This document shows, piece by piece, positions 33,501 through 59,530 of a stretch of 64,000 bases of DNA. The stretch covers positions 1,922,001 through 1,986,000 of the forward strand of contig OZ017749.1 of assembly GCA_963969365.1 (NCBI GenBank), written 5' to 3'. The notes beneath the pieces are model-generated. The model was not told where the DNA came from. It saw nothing but the letters and a program-made list of their open reading frames with translations, and searched no databases. Made by a program: the position numbers and the translations under genes. The stretch comes from Asterochloris sp. CNOR1 (Eukaryota; Chlorophyta; Trebouxiophyceae; Trebouxiales; Trebouxiaceae). Positions within the stretch are counted from its first letter, which is position 1. The number at the start of each line of letters is the position of its first letter.

Positions 33501-34762
33501 GCAGCTCCTATGTTGCAGGCAATCGGGTGGCCATGCAACAGCTGTCTCTGCAGGTAAGCGGCCTCACATCTCTGCTGGCCCTGCCGTTCAGTGACAGCTG
33601 TGGTGTTTTGGCAGTCACAGTGAGATCATGGAGCCGTTGCTGTGGTTATTTGAGCGTCATAAGAGCAGCAGATGGGTGCCGGGCTGCGCAGTGCCGGGCA
33701 GCTAGCTGCACGGCAGTCCCTGGCTCGAGAACAGGGAGGCTGGCAAGCAAATCCCGATGCTGTGCTGAACATCAAGTCATGGCGTATTGCATATCATTTG
33801 GAGAAGGTGGCTGCCAGTCTCCAAATGGTGTGCAATGCTTGGCGAAGGGGAAGCTTACTGGTATCTCATGCTTTAAGAGGTGGCTGCTTGCGCAATGCTG
33901 GACTGTGCTTTGGGAGGCAGCCGTGGCAGTGTTTCTTGCCCTGCAGAGACAAGACCTTGACCTACTCTCATTCGAGTTGTGCTGGAGGCAGCCCAGAGCT
34001 GTGAGTCTTCCAGAAGAGGTTGCAGCTGCAGGGGCTGCGTTGCTGCATTGGCTGTGGGTGTCCCTTGCCCTGCAGAGCTGCAAGGCAGAGCTAGAACTGG
34101 GGGCAGCTGCAAGGCAGCGAGCTGCAAGGCCTGAGTGCTGTCTTGTGCCCCTGCAGAGCTTCTATGAGGGCCAGAAGTGGGAGCAGCTGCAGGGTGGCGT
34201 TGTGCGACGTCTGCAGATGGAGAGTCAGCAGAGTGACACGCAACTGCAGAAGTCCACTGGAGACACGCACCCCCAGCCACCAGAAGGCCCAGTGGGGCAC
34301 ACAGATGCTCAAAGCCCTCCGGGTAGTGACCCCTTGCTGGCGACTGGTAGTGAGCAGCTACTTCAGGCGCATGAGTCCCTCCACATACCGGCACCCCCTG
34401 TAGTTGACGGGGGGTGTCCAGCTGGCTCACCGCAGGCCAGCAGCTTTAGCAACTCTAGTGCACCAGGTGGCAGCCTCTATGCGTCCACTGGGGACGCCAG
34501 CAGCCCGCTTGACTCTCATTTGTGGCACCTTCAGGGGCAGGCTGTACAGGCCCCCGGTGCACATTCAGCTGAATTGTCATCTGCAGCACAAGACAGGCAC
34601 CCCCTTCATAGGCAGCTCCGTCAGCGCACTTCCCCTTCCTTTACCCCCGCTGCAGCAGCTCCTTTCCCTGCACATCTGGAACAGAATGCTGCAAACCATG
34701 TGTCCAGTGAACTGACCCCCCTAGCACCCAGCTCTGACGAGCCTGGGGACCACCTGGTGTAA
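27525..34762 (+). CDS. ATG9: Autophagy-related protein 9
   Basis: Fourteen exons join in phase to 886 aa: 27525-27595, 27623-27724, 27944-28106, 28408-28509, 28806-28931, 29231-29418, 29796-29882, 30127-30312, 30922-31101, 31539-31728, 32307-32516, 32882-33065, 33288-33553, 34157-34762. ATG9 is the multispanning lipid scramblase that seeds the phagophore from Golgi-derived vesicles. Visible signatures: NLDQFFQRIYSYYVEKGF before the first membrane helix, the pair VVSRIMRKENYLIGMLNKG, LLERHLYGRNLVWWAAVLGV, and FLEEMASIILTPFVLYF, in the known order. The C-terminal about 290 residues are Ser/Pro/Gln-rich and disordered, as in plants. The start follows from phase: MDSMVQATGLTMEW ends phase 2 and joins the next exon. 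The 603-nt intron 13 is itself open in frame, so a retained form is possible. Confidence 0.94.
30645..30815 (+). repeat. Serial decoy copies of the ATG9 exon 9 acceptor
   Basis: The true acceptor (about 30905-30945, tgccctgccctgcag then GCTTGATGCC) is preceded by copies at about 30650 (ctgccctgccctgcag, followed by GGTGCATGCCTGCACCCA), 30740 (tgcctgccctgcaggct) and 30797 (tcctgccctgtaggctg). They are all within intron 8. Confidence 0.6.
32645..32860 (+). repeat. Serial decoy copies of the ATG9 exon 12 acceptor
   Basis: A motif like gtgctgcctggcctgca recurs near 32700, 32757 and 32822 before the true acceptor gtgttgcttggcctgcag ending at 32881. Only the last copy has the CAG followed by coding sequence. 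Spacing is roughly 50-65 bp. Confidence 0.55.
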
Positions 34763-34776
34763 CTGATTGTATGTAA
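34758..34776 (+). terminator. Paired TGTAA polyadenylation signals
   Basis: TGTAA, the usual chlorophyte poly(A) signal, occurs at 34758-34762 (overlapping the ATG9 stop TAA) and again at 34772-34776. This supports the ATG9 end. Confidence 0.5.
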
Positions 34777-35263
34777 TTCATCCCTCAGGCTGCTGACTCA
34801 CCAGAGCAACATGCACGCTCCATCCAGGCTGGACTCTCAGCAGGCACTCATATGTGCAGTCAGGAAGGTCTCTGCACAAGTCAGCCCCTGGAGCAGGAAG
34901 TTGGGGCAGTCACAGATGCTTTGCTGGAGCAGATAAATGAAGTGAGGATTGTGCATGCACTGCCAACAAGCAGCCCTCAGCAAACTTCAGCCAGCTCCCA
35001 TGCGGGTGCCTCCCTGTGCCTGAAGCCAGGCTGGCAGTCTCAAGCACAGCACACAGCTTGGAAGGTAAATTTAAGCCCTGCTGCATCTTCAAAATGTCCT
35101 GCTGTGTGTCTCTTCTCGCACTCTGGCACAGGTCATCTCGTGTCACAGAAACAGGCGCTGCTGCTTTACATTTGATTGGAAACAGGTGCAAGCGTTCAGG
35201 GGCAGAACCGCTCAAAACTGCAGCGCTGGCGCTGCAGCCCTCGTCATCTTCTGCAGACCCTCC
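34777..35263. other. Convergent 3' region, ATG9 / CBS gene
   Basis: About 490 bp between two facing stop codons. A plus-strand open stretch at 34852-35175 has no family signature and no start context. I take the region as 3' UTR and spacer. Confidence 0.45.
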
Positions 35264-36968
35264 TCAAGCCTCCTGTGCCAGGGCTGTGAAGATGTCTGTG
35301 CGGGTGACCATGCCCACGAGCTTGGCGTTGTCGTCCACGATGGGGATGCGGTGGACCTTGTGCTTGAGCATGAGGCAGGCGGCATCAGCCACCTTGTTGG
35401 TGGGCTTGGCGGCGATGGGCGGGGTGGACATGATGTCCTTCACCGTCGCGCTGTTGCCAGCCCTCTGCAGGTCCTTCTTAGACAGCACGCCCACCTGCAG
35501 CAGCAGGGTGCAGGGCTTGTTGAGAGGCAGGGGAGGAGCTGCTCTGAGAAGGTGCTGTTGAGCAGCTGAGCTGCGTCCGGCCCCCTGCAGGTCCCGCCTG
35601 GACAGCACGTGGACGTGCAGCAACAGGAGACTTGGGAGAGGTGAGGCCAAGCTGTTCAGAGGCGGACAGGTGCAAGTGAGAAGGAAACGCCGTTGAGCAG
35701 AGTGCTGTTGAGGAGCGGTGTTTGTGGAGCAGGGGCTGTGGAGCGCCGCTCCTCAGCAGCACACTTCCGACACCCCCCTACAGCATGCCAACACCTGCAG
35801 GGCAGGCAGCAAGAGGAGCAACGCAGTGAAGATGGCAGCTGCTGGAGCTGCTTGTCAGAGAGTCGTAGGTCATCCTTAGCAGCACCCTCGGCTGCAGGCA
35901 GAAGCTGCTGTCATGCTGTACAGCACGGGCTTCTTATTTCAGCAGAGTCATGCTGAAGCTGCACCTTTTGCTTGCGGGAGCTGACCTGCAGGGGAGGGGC
36001 ACTTGCATAGAAAGCCGCTGTCATTAACCGCAGAGGTGTGCAATGCACAGCGCTCTCCCATTGACTGCCCGGACATGCAATGTGTCAGGTAGGCAGGCAA
36101 CCAGTGGCGCGGTCCTGCAGCAGCAAGGCACATTGCTGCCAGAGCAGTAGCTGAGCAGAGAGACATACTCCTAAAGCTGTGCTTGACGCTGGCCTGGCCC
36201 CCTTCAGCAGTCGCTGCATTCCTGCTGCCGACTGTTTGCTGTTCATATTGGACACCCTGGCAGCAAGGCTCATTGCTGGCAGAGAGACAGGCTTTGGCAC
36301 TCCGCACATCTCCCAGTGGGGTTGCCGTGCTGCTCACCAGCGTCATGTCAGCGTTGCTCTTCACCACAGGCACTCCTGAGATCCGGTCGAAGACGCTGTT
36401 CAGGGAGTCCAGGCGCGTGTCCGGTGTGACCCACTTGATCTGCTTGGCCATCACGCCCTCCAGGGTGTTGCCTGGGGCGGCATCTGTCTTGAACTGCAAG
36501 TCAGGGGCAGGCAGGCAGTCCCGCCAACAGCCAATGCAGGCGACACTACTTGGGGCGCCTGTCGATAATGATTGCCCCTGATCTGGCAGCAGACAAGCGC
36601 ACACAGTATGCTGCAGCCATTGCCACAGGCTGCCTAGAACATGGAGGTGCAGGATGCCAGTGGCGAGCATATTTGGCTGGCTTCACATCTTGTGCGCCTT
36701 GCCTCACAGGCTGAGCACTCAATCAAGCAGCGCGCACCAGGTTGTTCTCAAAGAACTCGCCCACATCCTCGTAGCTGGCCAGGCTCCAGTTCACAGGCCA
36801 CTCCCCAGAGAGACTCTCCCTCTCCCCATCAGTCTCTGTGGCTCTGACCGCCACAGCATATCGCGGGGCCCGAGTCAGAGGGCTCCTCAGGCCCAGCCTC
36901 GGGACGACCACCCGATGCCGCAGAGGGTGGGCGCTGATGCCGGAGGTTGCTGGCAGGGAGAAGCGCAT
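35264..36968 (-). CDS. CBS-pair protein, plastid CBSX type
   Basis: Three exons give 205 aa: 36968-36738, 36493-36338, 35494-35264. The first about 42 residues are a basic, hydroxylated transit peptide (MRFSLPATSGISAHPLRHRV). Two CBS motifs follow: VMAKQIKWVTPDTRLDSLN to GVLSKKDLQRAG, then DIMSTPPIAAKPTNKVADA to HRIPIVDDNAKLVGMVTRTD. A lone Bateman module with a plastid leader matches Arabidopsis CBSX1/2, which bind adenylates and activate thioredoxins in the ferredoxin-thioredoxin system; that role is inferred. The third exon is open upstream through a degenerate second copy of its own start. The gene ends 126 bp from the thiazole kinase stop, in the same direction. Confidence 0.88.
35578..35625 (-). 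repeat. Decoy copy of CBS exon 3 start
   Basis: On the minus strand it reads VHVLSRRDLQGAGRS against VGVLSKKDLQRAGNS of the true exon 3, about 120 bp away. Flanking bases also repeat (ctgttgagcag), so a unit near 120 bp was duplicated. The copy is in frame with exon 3 and the intervening bases are open. Confidence 0.75.
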
Positions 36969-37094
36969 CCTGTTGACAGATTGGGCACACTGGCAAAATC
37001 TCGCTGGGAATCTGCACCTGCAGAGTTACACTTTTTCATGTAGTTGGCTGATCATGGCATGGGTCCAGAGCTCTGTGTGCTCTCACTGCTTGCA

Positions 37095-38437
37095 TCACGG
37101 TCTTGATGGAGATGTCAAATCTAGGAGCCTCAGTCCAGCTGTCAGCTGCTCTTGCGTCATGGAGTGGAGGTGATCCAGCATGCCAACACGAAGACTTGCT
37201 GGGCCCTTGGCCTCCGTGCTTGCCAGCTCAGCAGCCAGCCTGCATTGAGGCAGAAAGCTCTCAATGTCACAGCAAAACGGCTGAAGAAACACTCAGTCAA
37301 AATGCCGCAGCCTCACCCGAAGACAGCAAGCGCACAGGCGCTGGCCATCACCGCATCATCAGGGGCAGCCACAATGAATGCGGTGGCCATTGCTGTCACC
37401 GCACAGCCTGCAGCCGTGATGTTGGTCATGTCAGCCACTCCGTTCTGTACCTGGACCACCCTGCTGCCGTCTGTGATCTGCAGCAGTAGCAGGGGAGATA
37501 ATCATGGAGGTGCTATGCCAGCTAGCTGCCGGTGCAGATGTTTGCCTGGCCAGAGCTAGACTGCACTTGCAGCTTCCATCGGTGCAGTGACGCCTCAAAG
37601 GCACAGCCACAAGCAGCTGACAGTGCTGAGGTCCCACGCCAAGCAAAGGCAGGCACCTGGACGCCAGACAGCGACACACCCACCAGATCTGTGGCGCCTG
37701 AGATGGCGACAACACAGCCAACATCTTTGGCCAGCCGCTTCCCTGCTTCAAGGGCTTCCTCTGACTGTGCTGTACTGTCCACGCCTTTGCTGGAAGCGCC
37801 TGCTACTCCTGCGACAGCCATGATCTCAGACGCATTCCCGCGAATGAGGGTGGGCTTTAACTGGAGTAGACCTTCAATCACCTGAAGGGAGGCAGTCTGG
37901 CTTTGCTGAATTTGCAGCAGTCGAATCTGGCATCGAGCTTGCATGTGTTGTGGTGATCACTTACCTGAATGCGAGCTCGCGTGGCGCCTGCACCGACTGG
38001 GTCCAGCACCCAAGGGTGGCCTGCCTCATTCGCAGATCTAGCTGCCAATTTCATGGAAGCAACCCACTCAGGAGAAAGCGTGCCCACATTGACTAGCAGG
38101 CCAGCTGCAACTTTCTGAAAAGCCTCCACTTCGTCCACCGAGTGTGCCTGCAGACAATGCAGCAGCCGGCAGCCTCAACATTGCACAATTGATCAGGCAT
38201 GCCTGCATGCTCCTCACCATGGCTGGGCTAGCGCCCACACAGAGCATGGTATTTGCCATCATGTCCATGCTGCAGCACATGTCGTGTTGTGAGGAATCCG
38301 GGTGAGGGACTCAAAGGCTTACAATCAGAAATATGCTACCTGACAAAGTTGGTGATGCAATGAATGAGAGGGCTGTCCTGCCTGATTCTCTGCCATATCT
38401 GCCAACATCTGTCTGCATGCTGAGATGAAGAAGCCAT
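37095..38437 (-). CDS. THIM: Hydroxyethylthiazole kinase (ThiM)
   Basis: Six exons give 287 aa, a normal length: 38437-38340, 38269-38218, 38147-37965, 37881-37657, 37477-37317, 37239-37095. It phosphorylates 4-methyl-5-hydroxyethylthiazole (salvage) to the phosphate used by ThiE. Signatures: PLIHCITNFVSMDMMANTML, GASPAM, LVNVGTLSPEWV, WVLDPVGAGATRAR, LIRGNASEIMAVAG, and late ITDGSRVVQVQNGVADMTNI. The catalytic Cys motif reads ITAAGC where bacterial enzymes have VTGTGC, so the loop is altered but the Cys is kept. An in-frame stop lies 12 nt before the ATG, fixing the start. There is no transit peptide, so it is probably cytosolic. Its start is 99 bp from that of the divergent TH2 gene. Confidence 0.94.
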
Positions 38438-38536
38438 ACTTGCTGAAGGTCAGGTAGGGTGTTCATCGTGATAGGGTGCATGGCAGGCAATTGACCCAGA
38501 TCTCAAGCAAGAGTGAAGGCACGCGCCACAGGGGGC
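38438..38536. promoter_or_regulatory. 99-bp head-to-head promoter of THIM and TH2
   Basis: Both start codons face outward from this 99-bp segment, and in-frame stops just inside each side rule out longer N-termini without extra exons. The two 5' UTRs must be very short or overlap. I found no TATA box and no TPP-riboswitch core (no CTGAGA) in it. Confidence 0.7.
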
Positions 38537-41500
38537 ATGGCAGATCAGGGCCTGCCAGAGAGCAGTGGTCTCAGTCTGCAGCTGTGGCAGGGCTGCCAAG
38601 AACAAGTTGCAATTTGTCTCCATCACCCTTTTGTGAGGGCTCTTGCAGCTGGTTCCCTGCCAAGGTGAAGACTTGCAGCTTCCTGACATGCGATTCAGTC
38701 TGCCAATCACTCAAGCCCTGCTCAACATCTGTGCAGGCATTCTTTCCAACACTACATTGCCGAGGATGCATACTTCCTGTCTGCATTTGCATCAGCTTAC
38801 AGCCTTGCAGCAGCCCAGGCACATGGCAAAGTAGCTGAGACTCTGCAGGAGCTGCTGGCAGGAACACATGAGGAGCTCAAGCTACATACTGCTTATGCCA
38901 AGGTGGTGCTACCTCCGCTGCCATTACTAATGCACCTGAGAGCTCAACCACGCATTTCTCAGCTGGTCTGGCATCCTCCTGTTCCAGGACTGGGGTGTCA
39001 CCATTGACCCCTTGAGGAAGCCCCACCTGGCAACTGAGGCGTACTGTGCCTTTCTGCTCGATGTTGCTCGCAATCAGGTATTGCATCTTTGCTCTGTCTG
39101 CAGCAGTGGCCAGCTTTGCAGCTATATTAGCAATCTGCTGCAGGATGTGGCCAGCATTCTGGCTGCGATGGCTCCCTGTTCTAGGCTGTACGGCTACATC
39201 GGATGTCAGCTGGCAGCAAGCAGGCAGCCTCATGGTGCCTACCAGGCCTGGATTGACACGTATTCTTCAACCCAGTATCTTTTGCTCCCAGCCATCAAGG
39301 AAGGCTTGCTGGATCAGCTTGGTGCACAGGCTGAAGGAGGTGAGGTTGAGTTTGACCATTAGGTCAAGCACCCAGTCCCAAGTCATGCCGCATGGCGAGG
39401 GCCGTCTCCCTCATGAGGCTATGTGGGCAGCTTCCACAACCAACGTGCTCCCGTTCAGCCACATTCAAAGTGCCCACGGCATGGCAATTGTCGGACACAC
39501 CAAGGTGGCACAGTAGATCTGACAGGGGTGAAGGTCAGCCAGAAGCTCTCTGATGGGGCCCAAGCACTCACAGCAAAGCAAATTTTGCACCTACATGGAT
39601 GCAGGCCATCTGCAGCAGCTGTACTGTCGAGCCATGCAGATGGAGGCAGACTTTTTCACTGCACAGCCAGGCACCCCTGGGCTCCTTCAAATCAGGTTGC
39701 TAGTCATAGATTTTGATGAGACATGCACTGCCTCAGACAGCACTTCAGAGATCATGGGGACTGCTGTAGCAGCTGCCAGTGGCCAACCAGGTGAAGCTGC
39801 TGCCCTTTCTGACGTTTTGTTGTGGTCCCAGCCAGGTCCAATGTTGAAAGGTGGCACCAACACCCCACCCCTGCAGGCACAGATGGGCAGGCGGCAGGAC
39901 AGCAACGGGCAGACCTAGCCAAGCAGCTTGCTCAAAACTACTCTCGGCAGCACTCTGAAAGACTTTCCCAGATGCTCTCAAAGGTGAGACCCTGCCCATG
40001 GCTGCCCCTTCCAACAGCACTGCACAGAAAGTGACATCGCTGCGTCAACCTCGATGCGCCGACAGCATGCTGCCTGGTCACAGATGGGCAGGTCTGCCAC
40101 CAGCCTGGATCAGCAGGCGCTCAATGGCTGGGTGGCCCAGTCAGCAGTTTTTGATCGGAAAATGAATCAGAAAGTAATCGATGCTGGAGTCTTGTCTGGC
40201 ATCCGGCAAGGCAGCCTTGAACAGACAGGTGTGAGCTGACTGCCTTCCACTGCATCAGCTCCATTGCCAGCAAGCGCTCCCTCCTCGGCAGTGAAGTGCT
40301 GCGCATATTTTCTGCAATGGGCCATGCAGATTTGCACTTGGTGTGCAGGCAAAAGAGTTGCTCTGCAGCCAGGATGCCTGCAAACCCTGCAGCGAGTCCA
40401 GGCGCATCGGACGCCCATCCACATTGTGTCTGTGAGCTGGTCAGGCGACATGGTCAGAGGTTGCCTCAGCCAAGGCCTGGATGTGGCTACCCAGTAAGTT
40501 TGTGGGGCTACTCAGACAAGCACTAGCCTGACATGCGGAGCCATGTTGCAGGGCTGGCTGTGGTGCTTCATGAGCCAGCAGCAAGCATGTGGCATAGCCA
40601 GGTCCAATGTAATTTTCCCAAGCCTGGTGGGCGGCATGCCTGCAGGTCTGATGCCAATGACAAGGAGCAGCAGCAGCAACAGTGCATCATTCACGCCAAT
40701 GAGCTGCAATACCAGGATGATGTCAGCACTGGCGCACTGATCAGGTACGTGCTGCACCTTGCTGTGTGTTGCCCATTGTGTGCTGTGTGCTGCATGTTCC
40801 TATGTACAGCTGCAGTCAGAGGCAAGCAGCCTGCTTCCTGCACCTGACCATCCAAGTGTTACGGCTTGACCTGCGAGATTGGCGGAAGCAGACCAGCAGC
40901 TGCTCTGGCTGCCAGCACGCAGCTGACCTGCGAGCCAACATCTAGGAGCTGCCCTGTCGTCCCAACCCAGTCGTCTCATCTGCAGGAGGGTGGAGTGCGC
41001 AGCAGACAAGCGGGAGGTCATGCAGCAGCTCCTGAGCCAGGCAACCGGCCAGGGGGTGTCAGTCTACATTGGTGACTCAGCCTCAGACCTGGCTGCCATG
41101 CTGGCTGCAGACCTGGGCATCGTGGTGGGCAAGAGCTCCAGCCTGAGGCAGGTGGCGGCATTCTGTGGGGTGCAGCTGCGGCCGCTGGTGGCAGGTGTGC
41201 TCCCTGCATTGATTTCACTGGCACCCTCTGCAGGTGATGTTGGCAGGCCCCTTGTCGGCTTGGGATGGCTGGTGGCCGGTGTGCCCAAGGTTGGTCGCTG
41301 GAAGTGTGCGACCAGCATGCTGCGAGGCAGGGGGACCCGCACCTTGCCGGTCACCCTTGCTGAGGGAGGTCTGCGTCACCTGCCGTCCCCATCAGTGACC
41401 ATCGCAAAAGCTAGGCGCTGTGCAGGTGCCTTTCTGACACTGAGGCGCTCCTGCTGGTGCACATATGTATCCACCGACCTGCCTGAAACACCCACAACCA

Positions 41501-41904
41501 GGGTGCTTGCTGCCTAACGTCTCAGCTGTGTAGGCTGAGGGCAGCCTGCGCTGCCTGCAGTTCCCATCAGCGGCCACGGCAAGCGTGGGACACTGTACGA
41601 GGCGGCCTCCTGGCACGACATTGGGGCGCTGCTGCTGGGCCCTGCCAGCACAGAGCCACCCCGCAACACCAGCAGCAGCAGCAGCAGGCAGAATGGTGCA
41701 GGCCCGCGGACCTCCCAATTGCAGCAATGCGGTGTGCGGGGGCAGCGAGGCGGCATGCGAGTAGGTGTCGCCGCTGCACGCCTGCACTCAGCTTGGATGG
41801 CAGTTTTTACACAAACGACAAAAGCGGGAATGATGCGGCAGGGGTTTGCTGCGCAGCAACTGACCAGTGTGACTCTTCCACTGTGGACCTGGGAACCTTG
41901 CTGA
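38537..41904 (+). CDS. TH2: TenA-HAD protein, thiamine monophosphate phosphatase (TH2 type)
   Basis: Exons: 38537-38664, 38737-38902, 38988-39077, 39144-39339, 39605-39790, 39877-39983, 40084-40228, 40349-40493, 40646-40744, 40986-41194, then 41561 to a stop at 41904 (604 aa), all in phase. Residues 1 to about 195 are TenA/THI-4 (LWQGCQEQVAICLHHPFVRA, HYIAEDAYFLSAFASAYSLA, AMAPCSRLYGYIG, AWIDTYSSTQYLLLP). The rest is a HAD phosphatase with motif I VIDFDETCTASD, SVSWSGDMVR, HANEL and motif IV YIGDSASDLAAMLAADLGIV. This is the layout of Arabidopsis TH2, which dephosphorylates TMP to thiamine. No transit peptide is visible. The family's end (LYEAASWHDIGALLLG) is followed by about 85 atypical residues; alternatively a phase-0 donor after 41760 joins the ThiD exon at 42263. 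Confidence 0.93.
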
Positions 41905-42262
41905 CCTCACACCTGCCTCGAAGGCCAACATGATTCATACACAGCAGCTTGTGTAGTGTGCCTGCAGCAGTCCCAGTGCCATTGGCATGACTGCCCACAC
42001 AGCCCACATTGTATTGCAGTGCAAGGGTTGGCGATTCTGCTTTCTGGCCTCAGGCGCACTTGAGCTCTGTCTCTGGTTCTGCCTAGAAAGTGTGCCATAG
42101 GGCTGCCTATGGCCTTGAGTCACAATGCCATCAGATCTCTCAGGTGCGTACGCTAGGCTGGACTGGTGCCGCAGTCACCGCCTGCAAGGTGGTGCACATG
42201 ATGTTGAGTGACGCTTGCTTGTCTCCCTGTGGCTCCGACATGCGGTGCACCGCTGCCCGCAG

Positions 42263-45200
42263 ATCCCCCGGGTGCTGGCAGTGGCAGGGTCAGACTCTGG
42301 GGGCGGTGCAGGCATCCAGGCCGACCTGAAAACTTTTCAGGCGCGCGGCGTGTTTGGCATGACGGCCGTCACCGCACTGACATCCCAGAACACGCACGGA
42401 GTGAACGGCGTGCACACGCCGCCTGTGGACTTCCTGCGGCGCCAGATGGAGACCGTCCTGGGGGACCTGGGGGCGGACGTCGTCAAGACAGGCATGCTGC
42501 CCAGCGCAGCGGTGAGCACCGAACATCACAACGTTGCTGGAGGCTGTTGGGGGCTTGTTGGGGCACCTGGGGGCTGAGTTGATGAAGACAGGCATGCTGC
42601 CCAGCATTGTGGGGAGGGGCTGGGCCATGAAAAGCAAGGGGCCGCATGCACAGGCATGCTAGACAGCGCAGCAGTGCGGCTCGGCAACCCACATGTGTGC
42701 ACAAATGCACAGGCAGCTGTCTGGCAGCCCTGGGTGCGCAGTGGCCACGGCGCAGTCGCTGGAGGCTGATGGGCTGCTGTGGGGATCCTGAGGGCGAACC
42801 TGGTGACTCAGGGCATGATGCCCGGCGCAGCGGTGAGCAGTGAAGCGCATGCCGGCCTGCACAGGCTTGCTGTCAGTTGCAACACCCCAGCTGAGGGGCG
42901 AATGGGGTTGTCATTGCACGGCAGTAGCCCGCTGCCTTGCAGCCATTGACATGATCCCAGCGTTGCAGTTACTGGAGGAACACTAGAGTCCAGGCTGTGC
43001 TTGCCGCCCGCCAGCCCCCTGTGCTCAGCGCTGCCATGGCTGCTGCAGGCAGTCAGGACTGTGGCGGATGCCCTCCGGGCCAGCCGCGTCGCCTGGAAGC
43101 ACCTGGTGCTGGACCCAGTGCTGGTGGCCACCAGCGGGCACTCCCTGGCAGAGGCTGATGCCGTCCAGGCCATGCGGGACCACCTGCTGCCCCTGGCCAC
43201 GGTGGTGACCCCCAACCTGCCCGAGGCCTCTGCTTTGCTGGGGGGCCGGCCAGTGGACACCATCGAGGACATGCAGCAGGTGGGCTGAGCCCACAAGGGC
43301 ATCAGGGCAGAAGCGCTGTGCTGGAGCTATGTAAGGGCATGCAGGAGGCGGGTGTGTGATTTGAGAAATGAAGCAAGGATGCTGGCTGGGCCAGCCACCT
43401 CATGAAACGCCAGTTGTACCATGCTGCACAGCCTGGTGTCTGGCTGCTCTGGTGACGCGCAGCTCTGATCTCAAGCTGTGGTTTAAGCCAGCACTGAGCC
43501 TGCAGCCTCAGACTCTCAAGCATGGCCTGTCTGCTCCCGCAGGCTGCCAGGTGCTCTCCTGACAGGGGTCCCCACGTCAAACTGGTCAGGGGAGGGCACC
43601 TCACACGGGAGGACTCTGGAGCCACCACAGCGCAGGCATCTTGTTCATGTTGCCTGGCTGCTCCTGCAGGCTGCCAGGGACATCCACGCCCTGGGTCCCC
43701 AGTACGTGCTGGTCAAGGGAGGGCACCTGACCCGGCCAGACCCTGGGGCCCCACCAGGCCTCGCCTCCCCGCCTCAGCAGCCCGGCGGACGCGGCGCCCC
43801 TGCCGACGCCAAGCAGGGGAGCCCCGCAGCAGCTGTGGATGCCCTGTTTGACGGGCACTCGGTGCAGATGCTGGCCCACCCCCACGTGCGCACTGGCAAC
43901 ACGCACGGCACGGGGTGCACCCTGGCGTCGGCCATCGCTGCTGAGCTGGCCAAGGGGCACCAGCCTGTGGCGGCCATCAGGCGTGCCAAGGGCTGGGTGA
44001 ACCACCTCCTCCAGGCCAGCGCCGACCTGCAGCTGGGGAGGGGGGGCCAGCGCCCCATGCACCACGGGTGAGGCCTGTGCAAGGCTGGGTTCTGACAAGG
44101 CGTTCTGACAAGAAGCTTTTCTGACAAGCTCAGCTGCGTCACTCGTTCCTGCTGTGCACGCATCTGGCGGATGGGGGTGCAAAGCCCCCAGCAGCCTGCT
44201 TGAGGGCCGGGTGGACTTGTATCCTGGAAGGGGTCGGCAACTGCTGCTTGCCTGGCTTACCCATCCCTGCAGTGCATGTAGCTGGAAAAGCACATTGGGA
44301 CTGTGTTGTGGAGGGCGAGCCTTGAGCACCGAGAGGCCTCTGCAGTGCAATGCTGGCAAGAGAAGAACAGAGGGAATGCAGCTCCGGCACAGGAGTCTGG
44401 TGTGTGCTAAACTGTGGAGCAAACAACCCAACCATGAGGCTATGCATGCTACCCAACCCTGAGGCTATGCAAAGCTGCAGGTCTGCAGATCCGGAAGCAC
44501 CACGCTGCTGTGCAGCTTGTGCCAGTGCTTGAAGGGTCTGTATTGCGCTCGGCTGCTGTGAGGGTCGCCTCGTCAAGGGCAATGTGTGTGCTGCAGGACT
44601 GCAAGCTCCCACTGCTGCACAGAACATGCCAGTGCTTGAAGGATTCCAACTTCAGCCGCACTTTCTGCCTCAATGCTGTCCTGTGTGCTGCAGGTTTGAG
44701 GTGACCGACTGGACCTCTGGCAGCGGCAGGCAGCCCCTCGATCTGAGGGTCTACGCGGTGACAGACCCCAAGTGCAATCAGCAGTGGCAACGCAGCAATG
44801 CTGCAGCGGTGGAGCTGGCGGTGGCGGGGGGCGTCACCCTGGTGCAGCTGCGGGAGAAGCTGGCAGATGGGGGCGACTATGTGCAGCAGGCGCGGGAGGT
44901 CATAGCTGTGGCGCGGCCGCTAGGGGTGCGTGGCTCAGGTCCTTGCATGCAAACGAATGCAGTCACTCCCCACCTTGGACTGCAGACCGACGTGTTGCAT
45001 GAGCAAGCTCAACATGCAAGGCCCTGCCTGCGCCTGCAGGCCTTCTGCCTTGGGCAGCAGCTGGCACGTGGATTTAAGGCCATGGTGCAGCCATGAGGGC
45101 TGTGCGGCTCTGACGTGTGTAATGCAGACTGGTCTCGGTGACAGCTCACGGCTCTGCAGGGGGCCGGAGGCAGCGAGAGGGGTAGCATGATGGTCTCTTC

Positions 45201-46549
45201 TTGCATGCAAGGCTCTCGTTTGTGCCTGGAGAGCAACGTGCATGCAACATGACACGCGCAGCAGGCATGCGAGGTCTCAGCTGGTGGGCAGCTACAAGGA
45301 GGTCAGCGGCTCTCAGTCCCCCATGGCTGTGTGCTGGACGTTGGGCCTTGTGGGAGCCTCATTCCTTTGGGGATGCCAAGCACCTGCAACCCCCTGTCAA
45401 CAGGGTTGCCATGTGAATGCATGCCTTTCCATTTGCATTTCTTGCAACTGCGCTAGGCATTCATGCTGCAGGCACAATATCTCAGAATCCCAGCCATTTC
45501 AAGCAGATGTGCACAGTTCAACATCACCTTGCCGCTGCCTTAACCACCCATCTCCCCCGCAGTGGTGCGTCGTCATCAGTGACTGCCTCGATGTGGGCCT
45601 GGTGACTCAGACTTGTCCACTACCCCCAAGGTGGCTATTGCCAGCAGCTGCAGTCGTCGTCGCTGCGGGCAGCTGTCCTCAAACAGCGTCCCGGGGCACA
45701 TTACCACAGACTTGTCTCACCTGCAGGCTGTGCCCCCAGGCAGCTGGACGCAGCTGGCGCCCCACTTGCCACCTCACTCTGCATGCTGCCCCCAGCCCCA
45801 GCTCTGCTGCAGGTGGGTGTCATCATCAACGACCGCATCGACGTGGCCCTGGTGGCAGGGGCAGACGGCGTGCATGTGGGGCAGGACGACATCCCTGCGG
45901 CTGCTGCCCGGCATCTGCTGGGGCCGGACCGCATCCTGGGGGTGTCGGTCAAGACGGTCGCGCAGGCTGTGCGGGCGCAGGAGGAAGGGGCTGACTACCT
46001 GGGGGCAGGGGCAGGTCAGCTGCTTTCATATCGGACAAACTATGAAGCTGCTGAGCATGCAGCCTGCGACTGCGATTTGTGCCAAGAGGGCACCCAATAA
46101 GGCAGCGCCAGCCATGTGTCCAGCAGCTTGCATGGTTGGGCAGTTGAAGCTGGCTCCCCATGCGCAGTCTCTGTTGTTGAACAACAGGCTCTTTGCACCA
46201 TAGCTGATTGCCAGGAGACTGATTCTGTGAAGCTGGCTGCAGTGCTGAAGCCGACCGTGCTGCCCTCTGATCCTCTGCAGTGTTCCCTACCAGCACCAAG
46301 GACAGCTCAGTGATCGGGCTGGACCTGCTATCTGAGATCTGCCGGGCCGTCAGCATCCCTGTCGTGTCCATTGGCGGCATTTCATCCCAGAATGCTGGGT
46401 CCACAGTCCTGGCAGGCTGTGCAGGGGTGGCAGTGGTGTCAGAAATATTTGGCAGTGAGGACCCCGGCGCTGCGGCCCAGAAGCTCAGCCAGGAGGTCCA
46501 GCTGGCATTTCAAAGAAGGACAAGCCCTGATACAGCGGCTGGCCAATAG
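42263..46549 (+). CDS. TH1: ThiD-ThiE: HMP(-P) kinase and thiamine phosphate synthase (TH1 type)
   Basis: Six exons, 526 aa: 42263-42511, 43049-43279, 43670-44067, 44694-44925, 45813-46014, 46281-46549. Residues 1 to about 290 are Thi[72 protein letters not shown] and the GTGC loop [20 protein letters not shown]. The rest is Thi[91 protein letters not shown]. It makes HMP-PP and couples it to HET-P giving TMP. The plant homologue is plastidial, but here the first exon has no ATG in frame and no transit peptide. So either a tiny first exon (ATG CGA before the donor at 41761) exists, or this is the second half of the TH2 polypeptide. Introns hold several decoy copies of exon edges. Confidence 0.93.
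42585..42839 (+). repeat. Two decoy copies of the ThiD exon 1 end
   Basis: Bases 42585-42605 repeat 42485-42505 exactly, 100 bp apart. Bases 42812-42839 repeat 42491-42518 at 26 of 28 positions including the GTGAG donor. Both lie in the intron that follows the exon. Confidence 0.85.
43533..43625 (+). repeat. Decoy copy of the third ThiD exon start
   Basis: Acceptor plus about 80 bp of exon recur 127 bp upstream of the real one: gcaggctgccagg, then aactggtcaggggagggcac against gtgctggtcaagggagggca, then a ggaccctggagcc-like end. The copy is in the preceding intron and its frame is broken. Confidence 0.75.
44580..44632 (+). repeat. Decoy copy of the ThiE first acceptor
   Basis: The string tgtgtgctgcag at the true acceptor (ends 44693) also ends at 44599. 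The upstream text tgccagtgcttgaagg occurs at both about 44520 and 44628, so a unit of about 95-105 bp is duplicated. Confidence 0.6.
45560..45605 (+). repeat. Decoy copy of the ThiE second exon start
   Basis: After an AG it reads [16 protein letters not shown], against [16 protein letters not shown] in the true exon at 45813, about 250 bp downstream. It lies in the preceding intron and has an acceptor-like CCCCGCAG. Confidence 0.75.
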
Positions 46550-47254
46550 CCCAGCACCCTGCATCAGTTAGAACCTCACAAATCTGATTTTGCTGATAGT
46601 CTCAATTCTGCATTGATCACAGGTTCAGTTTTGACAATGAATGCCTGATGCCCATACACAAACCCCCTGTCTGAGTCCCACTCTGCCAAAGTGACAGCAA
46701 GCGATTCTGCACATTACAGGACATCTTCACGTTCACTCTGATGAGGCCATTGATGGTGGGCAGTGTCAGGTGTTGGGCAAAGCACCAGGTTGTCAGGTGT
46801 CGGGCAAAGCACCAGGGACCTGCTGTGTATGGCAACGGTGAAGAATGTGCAAAATTAGTGCCATCAGGGCAGGCCTGGGCACATAGACATGTTCCAGGAG
46901 ACGCGCTGGTACTGAACCACTGGTCTAGGGAGAGTTCTCTCAGATGGTGCACCCACATTGCACAAAACGCCAGCAAGTCCTCCAAATCACTTGGCGTGAG
47001 GGAAGAACCTGCAGAAGGGAGCACACCTCAGTGCACGTTCACACAATCAGAAGCTGCTGTCCAAGCTGTGGATGCTCCCACTGCATGAGACTTGAGGCTC
47101 TTCTCTGCTGACCACACATATGAGGCTTCATGCTCAGGCAGATGACAGACTGGGCCAGCTGTGCTCTCTGAAGCTCTGGAAGGGCCCTAAGCCGGTTTTG
47201 ATGCTCAGAAACAGCACTGCTGATGGCGCACAATAGATTGGTCACAAGCAGAGC
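46550..47254. other. Convergent 3' region, TH1 / H+-pyrophosphatase
   Basis: About 700 bp between facing stop codons. Open frames on both strands here have no family signature. A short direct repeat, gtgttgggcaaagcaccagg / gtgtcgggcaaagcaccagg, occurs at 46771-46790 and 46797-46816. Otherwise nothing is seen. Confidence 0.5.
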
Positions 47255-50200
47255 TCACTGGAAGATGAGGCCGTCGGGGGTGTGGGATTTGAAGAATGGC
47301 GCAAACACAAGCGACTCTACCGCCATCAGCTTGATCAGAATGTTCAGGGAAGGGCCGGAAGTGTCCTTCAGTGGCTGCAGCACAGCAGCATGCACCTGCC
47401 TCAGAGGGTCTGCCTCATTGAGAGACAGAGAGCAGCAGCGTGCACCTTGATGCCGGCATGCAAGGCAGCTGGATGCACCGACTCAAGTCGCAACAAGGGC
47501 CAGGCAAAGCATGCAGAGGTAGCAGCCCCACGTGCCTGATGCACAAGCCATCTGAGATGGCTATGAAATCAATCGAGAGCAGCTCTGGTTCGTCCATTTC
47601 ATGTGATGCTTCGTGTGGTGCAAAGGACAGTACCAGTCTTCGACAGACATTGCTTGGGACGCTTTTAGGCCCCACAGTGAGCGGAACATGGTTGCTGAGC
47701 AACAGGCAGGGGCACTCACGTCGCCGACAGTGTCACCGACGACAGCTGCCTTGTGGGCATCAGAGCCCTTGGGGCCCAGCTCCCGCGCAGCCTCATCACG
47801 GCCAGCCTGCAGGCAATGTGCCAGCATGGCTTAGCGGGCAGACACATTGCGGCACCGTCACGTCACATGTGGACAGAGCCTTGGAAATGAGGTCATTGAC
47901 AGCTCAGGCACTGTTCATAATGCATTGTGCTGTAACCCATAATGCAACTCAGGCAGTGGATCAAAAGCCTTCTGCTGCAAAGTGACATACTTTGTGCTTT
48001 GACTCACCTCGATATACTTCTTGGCGTTGTCCCAGGCTGCAGAACAGGAAAGCCCAGCATGTCAGTATAAACGACAATAGCTGACAGACCAAGTTGCCAC
48101 CTCTCTTTTGCAGAGGGTGTCAGCATTGACCACAGGGGCTGGCACACCAGCATCGCCACAGCCCAGCACACACTCACACAGGCTGCTCATTGCTGAGCTA
48201 GCAGCACATGAGCAGAGAGCAGAGTCAGCAGCATCACAGGCAGCATAGCAGGAGGAGGGCACTGCAAAGACATCAGCGTGAATGAGGCCCACCTCCACCA
48301 GTGTTGCTCATGCTGACAGCCATCTGCACGCCAGACACAAGTGCGCCAGCCAGCACCCCAGCCAGGGTGCGGGTGCCAAACAGGACGCCCACAATGACGG
48401 GGGTCAGCATGACCAGGGCGCCCGGGGGGATCATCTCAGACAGTGAGGCCTGCAGGCGCAGCAATGCAGATTGAGCCAAGTGCTGGGGAGCAGCACAGCC
48501 GGGGGGTTCGGGGGGGTGTGCATGCAACAGCACCCCAGAGGAAGCGGTAAGAACAGGGAGGCCCCCAAGGGCAGCAGTGCAAACTCAGCTGTGTGCTTCG
48601 CAATGCATGCAGCAGTCCCCCGCAGGCACCTGGTGCGCGGCAGCCCAACCCCCTCGGCATATGCCCACCTTGGTGGAGATCTCGACGCAGCGCTTGTAGT
48701 CGGGGCGGGTGGTCCCCTCCATAATGCCGGGGATGGTGTTGAACTGGCGGCGCACCTCCTCCACCATGGCGAGAGCTGCCTTACCCACCGACTTCATGGT
48801 CATGGCACTGAACCAGAAGGGCAGCATGGCGCCCACCAGCAGGCCGGCAAAGACCTACAGGGTGGGAACAGAGATGCCATGGGCGACGGGGTCTGACTGG
48901 AAGCAGAGGGTGCAGGATGGCATGGCTGAGACCCATGCTGAGATGTGCCTGCCAACACGTGCACCGCTGGGAAGGATCTGGACCCCGCCTGCCAGTTGTC
49001 TGGGAAGGCCACCCTGCCCCGCAATAGTTGAGGCCACCTCAGCTTCAAAACCGCAGCAATGCACACCTTTCACTGAAGGCGCATGCTGCAGGACAGCAAA
49101 CCCAACCCCACCTCAGGGTCCAGGATGGAGACGTCTGTGGCCTTAAGGTCAGCCTGCGTGATGTAGGCGCCAAACAGGGCCAAGGAGACCAGGGCGGCTG
49201 AGCCGATGGCAAAGCCCTTGCCAATGGCAGCAGTAGTGTTGCCAGCTGCGTCCAGGGCGTCTGTGCGCTCACGGATGTCGTCACCCAGGCCCGCCATCTC
49301 AGCGATGCCGCCGGCGTTGTCAGAGATGGGGCCGTATGCGTCAATGGCCAGGCCTGTAGGACAGGTACACTGGCGCTGAACGCACAGCGCAGCAGAGCCG
49401 GCCCCACTTGAGGGCCGCTGGAGACTCGCACTTTTGCAGCCAAAGTGCAGGAGGACCAGGAACTCTGATGCTCTGCTCCAGCCAAGAGGCAGCTTGTCCC
49501 AAAAAACCCTGCTGATGTGGTGCCCTTCAGCGCTTGGGCACGTCTGGACAAGAAAGAGGGCTGCTTCCTGGCCTGTCCTGCCCTGTCCTGGGGCCTGCTC
49601 ATCTAGTGCCTAACAGGAAAGGCTGCCTCTATTGTGGCGTGCCAGCATGTAGGTGCCGCAGAGTATATGCTCAGCAGTTGCGATGATTTGGCCATGCAAA
49701 ACCAGCAGCTGCCTTGCTGCTGGTAAGTGTGGAGTTGCCCTAGAATGCTCATAGCAGCTGTCATAATGCAGCCTCAAGTGTTCCAAGCAGGAAAGTGCAT
49801 GTGGGCCATACAGAGACTTCAGGGCTGCATGGGTCCTCAAAAACTTTTTGTGATAAACACAAGCTCACCGGTGGACAGTGTAGTCAGGAAGCCCAGGGCT
49901 GCGCAGGCGATGCCAAACATGTGGGCCAGGGTGAAGGAGACAAAGATGCAGGTGGCGATGACCAGGCAGGGCACAATGGCGCTCTTGTAGCCGAGGGCCA
50001 GGCCAAAGATGACGTTGGTGGCTGCGCCGGTGCGGCAGGAGTCGCTCAGCTCCTGCAAGCAGGGTGGATGGGTGGGATGCAGGTGGTCTGTCAGGGTGCA
50101 GCTCTGACCACCTGCCCTGGGCTGCTCTTGCAACAACAGCTGCAACTTTGCTGGCAGGGCGGGGTGCTGCCAGGTAGCAATATGTGGCAATGTGGCGCAT

Positions 50201-53200
50201 GCACTGATGCTGCAGGCTGCCAGCCATGAGGACAGCCCTCATAAAAAAGGTGGAGCTCTTACACGCCTTGGAGACACAGCTGGCCCAGCTGACAACCAAT
50301 AAGCCCACATTGACAGGTGCCTAGGCATTGCAAGTGCAAGTTTGGAGAAAAGGCCGCTGGGCCCACACCAACCAGGCTGTAGGCCCACCACAACAACGTT
50401 GGGGGCAGCAACATCACAGAGCACACCACCGCCCCTACCCACCTTGACAGGTGCGTAGGCGTTTGAGGTGTAGTACTCAGTGACAAGGCCAATGGTGAGG
50501 CCGCCCCACAGGCCAGAGGCCACACAGAAGAACAGGTAGTAGTTCTTCACAATACGCTCAGGCTCGTCAGTGAAGATGCCATGGAATTCGCGCGGCAGGC
50601 ACAGAAGAGTGATGGCCAGCACTGCCTGCAGCAGGGAAAGTTAAGTTTGAGAGCTGGGTTGGAAGCTTGGTGGCTGTGACTTGCAGCAGTGGCAGACGTC
50701 AGTGTGAATCCAAGTTGAGCTGTGAGTGAAGCTGGCACTGCGTTTCACTGCTATCAGCAGGACAGCCATGGTGTGAAAGCACAGCACGAGCTGTAGACTT
50801 GCAAATGATGCCCACATGCAGACCCTCTGCAGCTGACGACAATTTGTGCACCCACAAACTTGCACACCAGCAACCTCAGCAGCTGTGGCAGACAAGCAAA
50901 CTGTGAAACCACTGCTACTGCTCATGCTGAGCCTCCTCTGCTTGAGACCAAAATTGCCTCTGCAGAGGCACACCAAGGGAGTGCCCGTCACTGATGCAGG
51001 CAGCCACCCACGCAGACTTAGTAGTTGCAACCTGCAGCCCCTTCCGATTGCAGGCAGCTCAGCTTTGACAAGACAGGATCCTGACAACTTAGCAGCAGGC
51101 ACAGGTTGCCAAGCATAGCCCCAGCCGCAGACCATAACCTCAGGTGGATGTGAGCCCACTGGGCTCACCAAATGATTTCCAAAGAAGGCCAAAACAGCAA
51201 CAGCAGACGGAGCTCACGGGGGTGGCCAGCAGGGTGGAGATGACGAGCTGCAGCTTGAGGGTGCGCTCGATGTCAGACACCAGGCGGGCGGGCTTCAGGT
51301 CGGTGGCGATGAAGGTGGTCACCACGCAGACCAGGATGCCGACAGCTGAGATGGCCAGGGGGTAGGACAGGGCCACGTAGTTGTGCTCCTGGGCCAGGCT
51401 GGAGACCGACAGCAGGATGAGGGCGGCGCAGGAGGACTCGGCAAAGGAGCCGAACAGGTCAGCGCCCATGCCAGCGATGTCGCCCACGTTGTCGCCCACA
51501 TTGTCTGCAGGGGAGGCAGTGCATTTAAGTGGATGCTGGTGCTGTGTCTGGGCAGTGTAAGCTCCTGTGTTGCTGGAGTTGTGCACCAGCTTGTCCTGCA
51601 GGGCAATGCTCGGCGGCCTTAACCAGAGCTGCAGCCACCTATGCCCCTTCAAGGTGTCAACTCTCCTATCATGGCCACAGGCTCTCAGGCGCCCCTTGAG
51701 GCAGCCTCAGCAATACCTACATGCAGAGTTGAAGCTGACTGGCCCCTGCAGCAGCCCCATCCCTGCGAGAGTCCACCTGCCATTGGGGTGTCCAGATGCA
51801 CAAGTGGCACTGACATGTAGGACCGGAACCTGCAGTACTGGCTGCCTGGATGCAATTGCAGTGCCCTGATGCATCCAGTGCACAAGGATGCCAGCATGAA
51901 GGACCTGGGATCTGCCTTTGGGGGGTTTTGGTGCAACTGGGCTTAGCCTGAGGTGCCCACAGTCGTGACTGGCTGCCTACCTGCAATGGTGGCAGGGTTG
52001 CGGGGGTCGTCCTCAGGGATGTCCTTCTCCACCTTGCCCACCAGGTCAGCACCCACGTCAGCAGCCTTGGTGTAGATGCCGCCGCCCACACGCCCGAAGA
52101 GGGCAATGGAGGAGCCACCCAAGCCATAGCCAGCAATGGCCTCATACAGGCCATGCCAGTCGTCATTGAAGATCTGCAGGAAAGGTCAAGGAAGTGATAG
52201 GCCTGGGCAGCAACTTGTGTCGACTGGGCCGCAGGCCAAAAGATGTGCACAGAAGGGCTCCAGCAGGCCTCGCCAGTGAGTTTCAGAAGCACTGCTGGCA
52301 GCAACAACCCAGACTGATGTCTGGGCAGGTGCAGGCGCAATATGTGGTCACCAGGTGCATGAGCCATGCTGTGCACTCAATACTTCAGCAGCACTGCAGG
52401 GTGGTGCATGAGCCCCATGGCGTGCAGCCAGCCAGCGGGCTGCACCAAGCTGATGCATGATCCATGAAGGGCAGCGAGGGTGTGGATGGCAGTGCAGGCG
52501 GGTGCTTACCCGGTGGTAGACCTGAATGGTGATCCAGAGCACCAGCAAGCCATTGCCAGCCAGCAAGAACCCCATGACAGCGCCAGAGCGGAAGGCTGCA
52601 GGGAGCAGAATGATTCACTCAGATAGTAATGCCGCCACTGCTGCATCTCTGATGACGCTACACAAACGGACAAAGCCCGCCAGGCAGGGCTTGGTCAACA
52701 GTGACAGGGTGCACATGGGTGCAGCATGCACCGGTGGGCGCAGAGTGCAGGGGCAGACATGTCAGGGTGCAGGGGAGCCCCCATGTGAACACAGCCAGGC
52801 ACAGCAATGCCCACCAGCTATGGCAGCCTTGACTTTGACTAGGACCAGGCTGCCCATACAGAGATGCCTCGTGACGCAGACCTACCCAGCTGGGAGGGTG
52901 CATGAGGTGTGCATAAGCAGGCTGCCCCACACAGATGCAGAAGTGTCCAGCCGCCATATACAGTAGCCATAAAGGCAGGTGCAGTGTCATTGCCATGCCT
53001 CGATCACAATCACACACGCACCTCCCTGGTGAAAACCCCAAACCCAACTACAAGGGTGCAGTGGTACCCAGCGGCCGCACTCTCCCGTCGACCACTGGCG
53101 GTGCCTCAGTTGCCACCGATGCACATGCTCTGTGACACAAGATGGTGCAGCAGTGCCCAGCAGCCGCACTCACCACACATGAAGGCGGGCGCAATGCCCT

Positions 53201-54439
53201 TGCGGGCCTCAAGCGCAGTCCTGGCATTGGCGTACACAGCGATCTTCATGCCCAGGAAGCCAGACACAATCGAGGTTGTGGCCCCCAGCAGGAAGGAGAC
53301 TGTGGAGAACACTCCATTGTAGAGGGCTGGGGCATGGCCAGCCTTCCACTCCCGGGAGAACCCGTCCTGGCTGCTCAGCAGCACAAAGATGAGGCCAGCA
53401 AAGAAGACCTGCAGCAGAAGTGGGCAGTGCTGCTTTCTGGAGTGCAGGGACCTGGATGATGGTGGAGTGGAGCTGCAAAGGTCGGCCTGTGCGTTCTGGG
53501 CTGCTGCTCAGCTGCTGCGGACTTGGTTGGCATGTTCTGCGATGGGGCCAACCAGAGGATCAGCGTTGGGAGATGCCTGATGCCGACCAGACGGTACATC
53601 TTCCTGTGCGGCACGGTCCCAGCATTCTGGGCCTAATCAGCTGCTCTGTTTCTGCAGATAGGGCACCCGCATGGCCGAGTCGTGGTGGTGCTGGAGACAT
53701 GACCAAGACGATGACTCAGACCAGCAATTGTTTGCCTTGTGTTTGTGCTGTCTCCTGCAGAAGCCCACAGCAATCTGCCGACGTGCGGTCTGTCGGCGTC
53801 TAGCTGGCTGAGTCAGGTATGGGTTGTCACATGGGCCGCCAGCTCAAACAGGTGTGTGTGCCCACTTGATGCCAGCAGGTCAAAGTCGACAGCCATTGGA
53901 AGCACACACTGCAGCAGGACTGCTCACCATGAAGACGCCCATGTACTTGTACTCGGTGAAAAGGAAGGAGGTAGCTCCCTCACTAATGGCGGCCTGAAGA
54001 TCTGCTGCCTTCTGCACGATCTGCGGCCATGTCAGGCAGGGAGTCAGGCTGCTGGTGGCTAGATGCAGGGTGATGGTCATGGCTGTCTGCTGAGGCTGTG
54101 GATCAGCACAGTGCCAACGTCCCCTCCGGCAGCCTCATGGCCTTGCAGGCTGTATTGCTGGCGTGAGGTGCTGCCAGCATGACTGATCAAATTGATCTTG
54201 ATGCAGCACAAGGCTGCTTGACTAGCACACATGAAGGAAGCATCGTCAAGCGCCTGCACCTCATCCTCGCCACGCTGCTCCTCCTCAAGCAGGTAGCCTC
54301 GTGTTCCATCCGCTCTAAGGCCTTGGCTGCCGGTGGAAACCTGGATCTTGGACACTCGGTACCATAAGAAGACGCCAAAGATGATACTAAGAATAGCTGC
54401 TCCTGGAATGAGGATGTCGACGGCCAGATGTTGCAACAT
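47255..54439 (-). CDS. VHP1: Vacuolar-type H+-translocating pyrophosphatase, type I (K+-dependent)
   Basis: Fourteen exons, 753 aa: 54439-54260, 54020-53928, 53408-53174, 52595-52510, 52173-51981, 51504-51218, 50625-50443, 50052-49869, 49353-49112, 48854-48669, 48449-48293, 48036-48008, 47806-47720, 47374-47255. It couples PPi hydrolysis to proton pumping into vacuoles or acidocalcisomes; about 16 membrane helices are expected. Substrate-site blocks: [61 protein letters not shown] and [20 protein letters not shown]. The segment [20 protein letters not shown] has Ala where K+-independent enzymes have Lys, so type I. An in-frame ATG at 54502 would add 21 residues; 54439 fits the usual short lumenal N-terminus. 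Exon 12 is only 29 nt. The start lies about 215 bp from the PDK stop. Confidence 0.96.
50304..50326 (-). repeat. Decoy copy of H+-pyrophosphatase exon 7 end
   Basis: These 23 bp match 50438-50460 at 21 positions, offset 134 bp. The true copy encodes AYAPVK before its donor; the decoy has a stop in that frame. Confidence 0.75.
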
Positions 54440-58583: not shown

Positions 58584-59530
58584 CTGCAGGCAGTCAGTGC
58601 AGTTGTGTAACTGTCACTGGCAGCAACAGCAGGGCAGCCACTGCGCGCTGCTGATCAAAATAGTGTGTCAGCTGCTTCTGCAGGCAAGAAGAGTTGTAAG
58701 CACCTAGGGCGTGCAGCACCAGCAGGATGGTCCCCCTGTGGTGCTTGTGTCAGCAGTTTGCCGCTTCAGCAGGCAAGCAGTGCGGTTGAACACATGTGGC
58801 TTTCAGCGTGAGATGGTTGGCCCCTGTCTGCCTTTCAACAGACTGCACTCCAGGTGTACACTGCCAGCCACGTCTGCAGGCAAGACATCAAATGGGCACA
58901 AGCAGGCTGGCCCGTGTAGCAGCAGCAGATGCAAAGGGCGCAGGCATTGCATCTGCTGGCTCGTTCAAGGCTGTCTGCAATCCTAGGGAATTGAGATTTT
59001 TGAAAAGATTTGGTCCAAGAGCTGCATGGGCGCAACTTATGCATGGGCGCAACTTATGCATGGGCTCAGCAACACAGCTGGGGTGCATAGTATGTTGGCA
59101 AGGTGGGGCCCGCAGGGCATGCATGCAGGAGGACAACAGAAAACATGAGTACTGTGCAGCAGATCAGATGCGTCACGTTGCGCTGACCTGCTTTGCTGCA
59201 GCCAGAGCTGCCCAGACTCCCCGGGCATAACGTGCAGCCATGCAGCTGCAGGGCCTGGTTCTGGCCGCACTTCAGCTAGCAAAAGACTCTAGCCTCCTTG
59301 AGGTTGTGCAGGAGGCTTCTTTAGGCTGAATCTTGTCGGCGTGGGAGTGTGCCGATCATTGGCTTCATTTGGAATGGCCCATCTTGTTGGCCTCTATCTG
59401 TTTGCATGCTGAGTTTACATGGCACGGCTTCCATTACCGGAACCAGGCTGGTCCACATGGATCTCCTCTTGATTGAAAATGTTGTGACTAATGTGACACT
59501 TTTGTGGCTGCCAGCCTCATTGCAGGCAAT
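58584..59530. other. Divergent intergenic region, PDK / TTLL12-like
   Basis: About 950 bp that should hold both promoters and the missing first exon of PDK. I could not place that exon. The only structure seen is the 17-bp tandem repeat at 59024-59066. Confidence 0.5.
59024..59066. repeat. 17-bp tandem repeat, two and a half copies
   Basis: gcatgggcgcaacttat occurs at 59024-59040 and 59041-59057, followed by a partial third copy (gcatgggc). Confidence 0.9.

Follow-up and report, generated by a model that had tools for sequence, protein, structure and literature searches.

Adjacent THIM, TH2 and TH1 genes as a predicted thiamine synthesis and salvage cluster in the green alga Asterochloris sp. 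CNOR1

Three genes predicted to act in thiamine metabolism lie side by side in a stretch of 64,000 nucleotides from the green alga Asterochloris sp. CNOR1 (C4:1922001-1986000; the whole stretch is referred to below as the window). THIM encodes a putative hydroxyethylthiazole (HET) kinase, TH2 a TenA-HAD fusion and TH1 a fusion of ThiD, the kinase of hydroxymethylpyrimidine phosphate (HMP-P), with ThiE, the thiamine monophosphate (TMP) synthase. An earlier note, made from the letters of this DNA, had placed these genes next to each other at 37095..46549, THIM on the minus and the other two on the plus strand, with nothing between them. The spliced models and their domains bear out the identities and strands; the outer stop codons are those of THIM (37095) and TH1 (46549), and the modelled coding parts are separated by 99 bp and 358 bp, so that little space is left for a further gene. 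The 20 modelled introns (66-887 nt) agree with the view of the note that these are introned nuclear genes. The models have been built by six-frame translation and splice-aware joining, with GT-AG ends imposed and the choice of exons aided by plant sequences. Three non-homologous genes of one pathway adjoin at this locus, as in a metabolic gene cluster.

Table 1 Features of the thiamine locus and its surroundings (positions in the window)
Feature	Position	Strand	Remarks
CBS-domain gene	35264-36968	minus	Pfam match, on the THIM side
THIM, hydroxyethylthiazole kinase (predicted)	38437..37095	minus	spliced model, 6 exons, 278 aa
THIM exons	38437-38340, 38269-38218, 38147-37965, 37881-37684, 37477-37317, 37239-37095	minus	spliced model
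Region between THIM and TH2 start codons (99 bp)	38438..38536		candidate bidirectional promoter
TH2, TenA_C-HAD (predicted)	38537..41904	plus	spliced model, 11 exons, 604 aa as modelled
TH2/TH1 junction (TH2 terminal exon and 358-bp spacer)	41561..42262	plus	competing TH1 first-exon signals
TH1, ThiD-ThiE (predicted HMP-P kinase / TMP synthase)	42263..46549	plus	526 aa from first domain exon
TH1 exons	42263-42511, 43049-43279, 43670-44067, 44694-44925, 45813-46014, 46281-46549	plus	spliced model
Decayed copies of the end of TH1 exon 42263-42511	42559-42623, 42780-42844	plus	family D1, 72% and 75% identity, in the following intron
Decayed copy of intron/exon boundary 43652-43757	43525-43630	plus	family D2, 73%, in the preceding intron
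Proton-pumping pyrophosphatase (H_PPase)	47564-53507	minus	about 1 kb past TH1, tail to tail with it
Mitochondrial 2-oxoacid dehydrogenase kinase	54922-58613	minus	PF10436 over cut-off, HATPase_c below; about 8 kb from TH1

The spliced THIM protein matches the Pfam family PF02110 over practically its whole profile (positions 2-247 of 247, 247 bits, E 2.1e-73). Among the NCBIfam models NF006830 scores 293 bits (cut-off 180) and TIGR00694 255.6 bits, just below its cut-off of 256.4. THIM matches the solved structures of ThiM enzymes and of the yeast ThiE-ThiM enzyme. The Cys of the C-terminal ThiM motif is kept in the reading AAGC, the Ala of which is an oddity, as both bacterial/archaeal ThiM proteins shown in the structure-match alignment have TGxGC. 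With a full-length kinase domain and the ThiM motifs THIM qualifies as a predicted HET kinase. Its start codon is well fixed because an in-frame stop lies 15 nt upstream.

In TH2 the first part is assigned to the TenA family (PF03070, 108 bits, E 5.5e-31, profile positions 11-206 of 210), scoring 102 vs 130 bits, below the cut-off, with the NCBIfam model TIGR04306, and the second half carries what we take to be HAD-type motifs (DFDET at 229, VSVS, a Lys and GDSxxD). The matching solved structures are TenA proteins and, weakly, phosphoserine phosphatases. Cys140 of TH2 aligns with the Cys of PCYWLY in Bacillus subtilis TenA, which we take to be Cys135. TenA_C and TenA_E proteins are told apart by the active-site Cys (rule as given in an excerpt of PMC5635689), and by this rule the predicted TH2 protein, with its Cys140, is of the TenA_C type. 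The C-terminal stretch of about 86 aa, following LLLGP, is uncertain in the model, rich in Ser, Gln and Gly, and without a domain match. An in-frame stop is found 45 nt upstream of the TH2 ATG, and an upstream exon might still be spliced on.

TH1 is modelled as one six-exon protein in which a ThiD domain (PF08543, 289 bits, E 2.8e-86, profile positions 1-241 of 246) is followed by a ThiE domain (PF02581, 194 bits, E 1.8e-57, profile positions 1-180 of 180). It contains HGTGC and ThiE stretches, and the solved structures matching it are ThiD and ThiE enzymes. All three proteins contain the motifs of their families, and the enzyme activities assigned here are predictions from family membership.

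The genome assembly comprises 56,383,464 bases in 21 contigs and contains 31 exon-level matches to chlorophyll a/b-binding proteins; the GC content of the window is 54-65% per 2 kb. Contig C1 carries TTTAGGG arrays at its start and around 4.474 Mb, which suggests that the contigs are of chromosome scale and makes misjoining unlikely. When the genome was searched exon by exon, all matches to ThiM (3/3), ThiE (3/3) and the TH2-type HAD domain (7/7) were confined to the cluster region, as were three of the four ThiD matches, the fourth lying on contig C2 over the cut-off (38 bits) with a partial profile. The cluster genes are apparently single-copy. Elsewhere in the genome matches were obtained to THIC (seven, on C6), to THI4 (four of six on C17; one of the other two lies on C2, over the cut-off at 29 bits) and to TPK (C8). 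Given these, TH1 and TH2 presumably also act in de novo synthesis. Where the earlier note had proposed a salvage or late-pathway cluster, the late-pathway role together with salvage therefore fits and a role in salvage only does not: genes for making thiamine de novo appear to be present in the alga, and the cluster appears to be the common end of synthesis and salvage. A second TenA gene has been located on C3 (minus strand, about 4500-5230 of the extracted stretch), away from the other thiamine genes found. By eye its product reads GGL..LQAELRWFQ and WAIERAYNE, without PC.RLY, and is apparently TenA_E-like.

The same enzymes are known from plants, in which ThiD-ThiE and TenA-HAD are fused as in the alga; in Arabidopsis the THIM locus is on a third chromosome, apart from those of TH1 and TH2. 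The latter two, At1g22940 and At5g32470, are themselves on different chromosomes (PMC8331165), as expected from the remark of the note that the Arabidopsis homologues are separate loci, whereas the algal genes are adjacent, two of them sharing a 99-bp gap, and are complemented by the separate TenA_E-like gene. When seven points were placed at random in 56.38 Mb 20,000,000 times, 71 placements (~3.6e-6) brought three of them into 9,455 bp or less, a frequency that refers to this pathway alone and does not count in the other pathways a reader might notice. The grouping is real and, for this pathway, non-random.

The reading we prefer, and hold to be fairly probable, is that these intact-looking, apparently single-copy nuclear genes form a three-gene cluster for the final part that thiamine synthesis and salvage have in common, within one regulatory neighbourhood. 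The TenA_C part of TH2 would release hydroxymethylpyrimidine (HMP) from thiamine breakdown products, TH1 would phosphorylate HMP(-P) and join the product to HET phosphate (HET-P), THIM would convert salvaged HET to HET-P, and removal of the phosphate from TMP by the HAD half of TH2 would yield thiamine. The pathway logic set out in the earlier note was right in this respect. THIM and TH2 are arranged head to head with start codons 99 bp apart, within the distance of about 1 kb used to define bidirectional pairs. Barring a 5' intron, they must therefore either use a common promoter or have promoters that extend into the opposite gene, and the two genes are probably driven by one short bidirectional promoter within these 99 bp. 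Since TH1 follows on the same strand as TH2 within 358 bp, all three genes would belong to one regulatory neighbourhood. The start-to-start spacing is the best structural reason for considering THIM and TH2 as likely co-regulated, and it renders more plausible the suggestion of the note that the cluster is possibly co-regulated. Co-expression, and selection rather than chance as the keeper of the grouping, are both inferred as parts of this best explanation.

Several observations weigh against the proposed cluster. The phosphatase assignment of the second half of TH2 depends on matches below cut-off: PF12710 reaches 25.4 bits (cut-off 27) and covers profile positions 129-188 of 189 only, and the NCBIfam HAD-IB family phosphatase model TIGR01488 gives E 1.8e-7, also below its cut-off. 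The exon-wise searches can miss further copies, as illustrated by the TenA search, which did not report the TenA of the window itself. Genes are closely spaced here in any case: 126 bp past the THIM stop begins an open frame, without a Pfam match of its own, that is attributed to the CBS-domain gene from its position. Short spacing alone is consequently weak evidence in such a region, and the consecutive order of three genes of one pathway is stronger. The proposal is moreover drawn from one genome. Finally, the regulator known for this pathway, the thiamine pyrophosphate (TPP) riboswitch, probably does not act directly on the cluster, as no TPP aptamer was detected there, either at the gathering score in the window or up to E 1 in 34000-50000.

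A candidate TPP aptamer was found at THI4 (C17:1412826-1412938), scoring 50.2 bits, below the gathering score of 54.3. It is situated 138 nt past the stop codon of the last detected THI4 exon, likely in the 3' untranslated region. At THIC a search of 9.9 kb up to E 10 revealed no TPP riboswitch, and the genome-wide scan scored 49 of 2358 first-look candidates, so that absence elsewhere carries little weight. Negative riboswitch searches in trebouxiophytes are recorded in an excerpt of McRose et al. 2014 (PMC4260697).

The grouping might instead be due to chance, a rearrangement having brought together three genes that nothing maintains as neighbours and that are expressed independently. Asterochloris, Coccomyxa and Chlorella are reported to retain little synteny with one another after rearrangements (PMC6652019), the local region is compact, and some striking grouping is to be expected when many pathways and genomes are scanned. 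Against this stand the simulated frequency given above for this pathway, the consecutive gene order and the head-to-head starts 99 bp apart, and we regard chance adjacency as unlikely, if far from negligible.

The boundary between TH2 and TH1 admits another arrangement, since the first TH1 domain exon (42263) contains no in-frame ATG and is preceded by an in-frame TGA at 42209-42211 (the frame extends over 42212..42577), so that an upstream coding exon must be spliced in. TH2 and TH1 could accordingly be one gene, with the TH2 terminal exon joined in frame to 42263 to give a TenA-HAD-ThiD-ThiE polypeptide and the Ser/Gln/Gly-rich tail serving as a linker. The missing start, the tail without domain match and a phase-compatible donor at 41761 (CGA|GTAGGT, 3.7 bits), which connects the TH2 frame to the phase-0 acceptor 42263 (4.1 bits), speak for such a fusion. 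That donor, however, is weaker than every one of the 20 donors used as reference (minimum 4.6 bits), and of the 20 reference acceptors 19 outscore the acceptor at 42263; the site model was derived from the same 20 modelled introns that serve here as reference. Two other starts are at least as good: an ATG at 41693 in the last TH2 exon, in a different frame, with a donor at 41732 (5.8 bits) leading to the same acceptor, and an ATG at 42125 with the strong donor 42144 (10.2 bits) and a poor acceptor at 42282 (-1.4 bits), use of which would remove TH1 residues resembling other ThiD proteins. Codon scores do not discriminate between these first exons, nor do they decide whether the TH2 tail is instead a transit peptide of TH1, as was also considered; they are underpowered because even the conserved TenA part does not rise above zero. 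On balance the fused gene appears improbable.

A bolder version of the preferred cluster, to which we give slightly less credence than to the fused gene, has a bidirectional promoter from which THIM is transcribed in one direction and a TH2-TH1 unit in the opposite one, the unit being one transcript and possibly one TenA-HAD-ThiD-ThiE polypeptide. The locus would then be a eukaryotic re-assembly of tenA-thiMDE, and a putative riboswitch of THI4 would separately control the supply of thiazole. If this were true, a single regulatory element would set the whole route from thiamine breakdown products to thiamine.

Expression of TH1 from a bicistronic TH2-TH1 transcript by leaky scanning has been considered and is judged unlikely, as the coding sequence of TH2 is long (about 1.8 kb) and contains internal ATGs, and the first open reading frames (ORFs) described in algae are short. 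The bicistronic loci of green algae resemble TH2 and TH1 in being same-strand neighbours spaced more closely than typical genes. In Auxenochlorella, also a trebouxiophyte, their first ORFs have a median length of 291 nt and their spacers a median of 40 nt, TH2 being far longer, and colinear monocistronic genes on the same strand are spaced by a median of 2,518 nt (PMC11291117).

The introns of TH1 contain decayed copies of neighbouring exon edges, those listed in Table 1 and further ones at 45057-45098 and 45258-45299 (families D1-D3, 62-75% identity). They give the impression that the introns grew by tandem duplication across exon boundaries. At a minimum length of 40, three other multi-exon stretches of the window contained no copies, one set (three 40-nt copies) and no copies, respectively. 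It is unlikely that the copies act as alternative exons; the one at 42780 reads, by eye, TQG where the exon has KTG.

The gene content of the cluster also invites comparison with bacteria, which was made with the best 80 of at least 359 thiM relatives at loci titled bacterial, so that a closer prokaryotic relative is possible. Among these 80 loci thiE is present in at least 72, thiD in at least 58 and tenA in at least 45; thiM, thiD and thiE occur together in at least 56 and all four genes in at least 44. The counts are lower bounds because 24 of these loci span less than 12 kb. This gene set is therefore grouped elsewhere in life. The HAD half of TH2 found no match at E 1e-5 in any of the 80 loci. 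The best identities were 51% for THIM, 36% for TenA, 47% for ThiD and 50% for ThiE, at four different loci; no single bacterial group in this set showed high identity throughout, and no relatives of TH2 or TH1 were found in viral contigs (IMG/VR). In Staphylococcus aureus the same four activities are grouped in the operon tenA-thiM-thiD-thiE, the leader of which binds TPP (PMC2766623, in excerpt), whereas the algal genes are introned and nuclear, have fused domains, one inverted member and an additional HAD phosphatase-like domain, and show no detected TPP riboswitch. We consider it very improbable that the cluster descends from a bacterial salvage operon of this kind, horizontally acquired and with introns inserted later, for, although the content equals that of the S. 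aureus operon and of at least 44 of the 80 loci, the plant-type fusions, the 20 modelled introns and bacterial identities of no more than 51% argue against a recent transfer, as do the inverted gene, the HAD half without a match and the scatter of the best identities over four loci.

To our knowledge gene clusters of primary metabolism are uncommon in green plants and algae. The nitrate assimilation cluster of fungi likewise consists of neighbouring non-homologous genes of one pathway. Such fungal clusters can be coordinately regulated (PMC2040219); in the predicted algal cluster the pathway is that of a vitamin. No algal thiamine gene cluster was found described, by title or start of abstract, in the open-access papers searched; such enzymes and such an arrangement are each familiar, and it is their combination for which no description was found there. 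If conserved in relatives or co-expressed, the three genes would represent an algal vitamin cluster mirroring the content of a bacterial operon, and it would become testable whether these genes are brought together by selection for joint expression and not by descent from a bacterial operon. Should the alga be a lichen photobiont, the cluster would also bear on the supply of vitamins in lichens.

The surroundings of the cluster have been scanned in 30 frames, mostly picked by codon score, 16 of which have a Pfam match up to E 0.01; no further thiamine gene was found among them. On the side opposite to the pyrophosphatase and kinase genes, matches to ATG9, a glutaredoxin, an epimerase, ankyrin and vacuolar ATPase E were obtained in addition to the CBS-domain gene. 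The mitochondrial dehydrogenase kinase family regulates enzymes that use thiamine diphosphate, and the position of its gene near TH1 is probably a coincidence.

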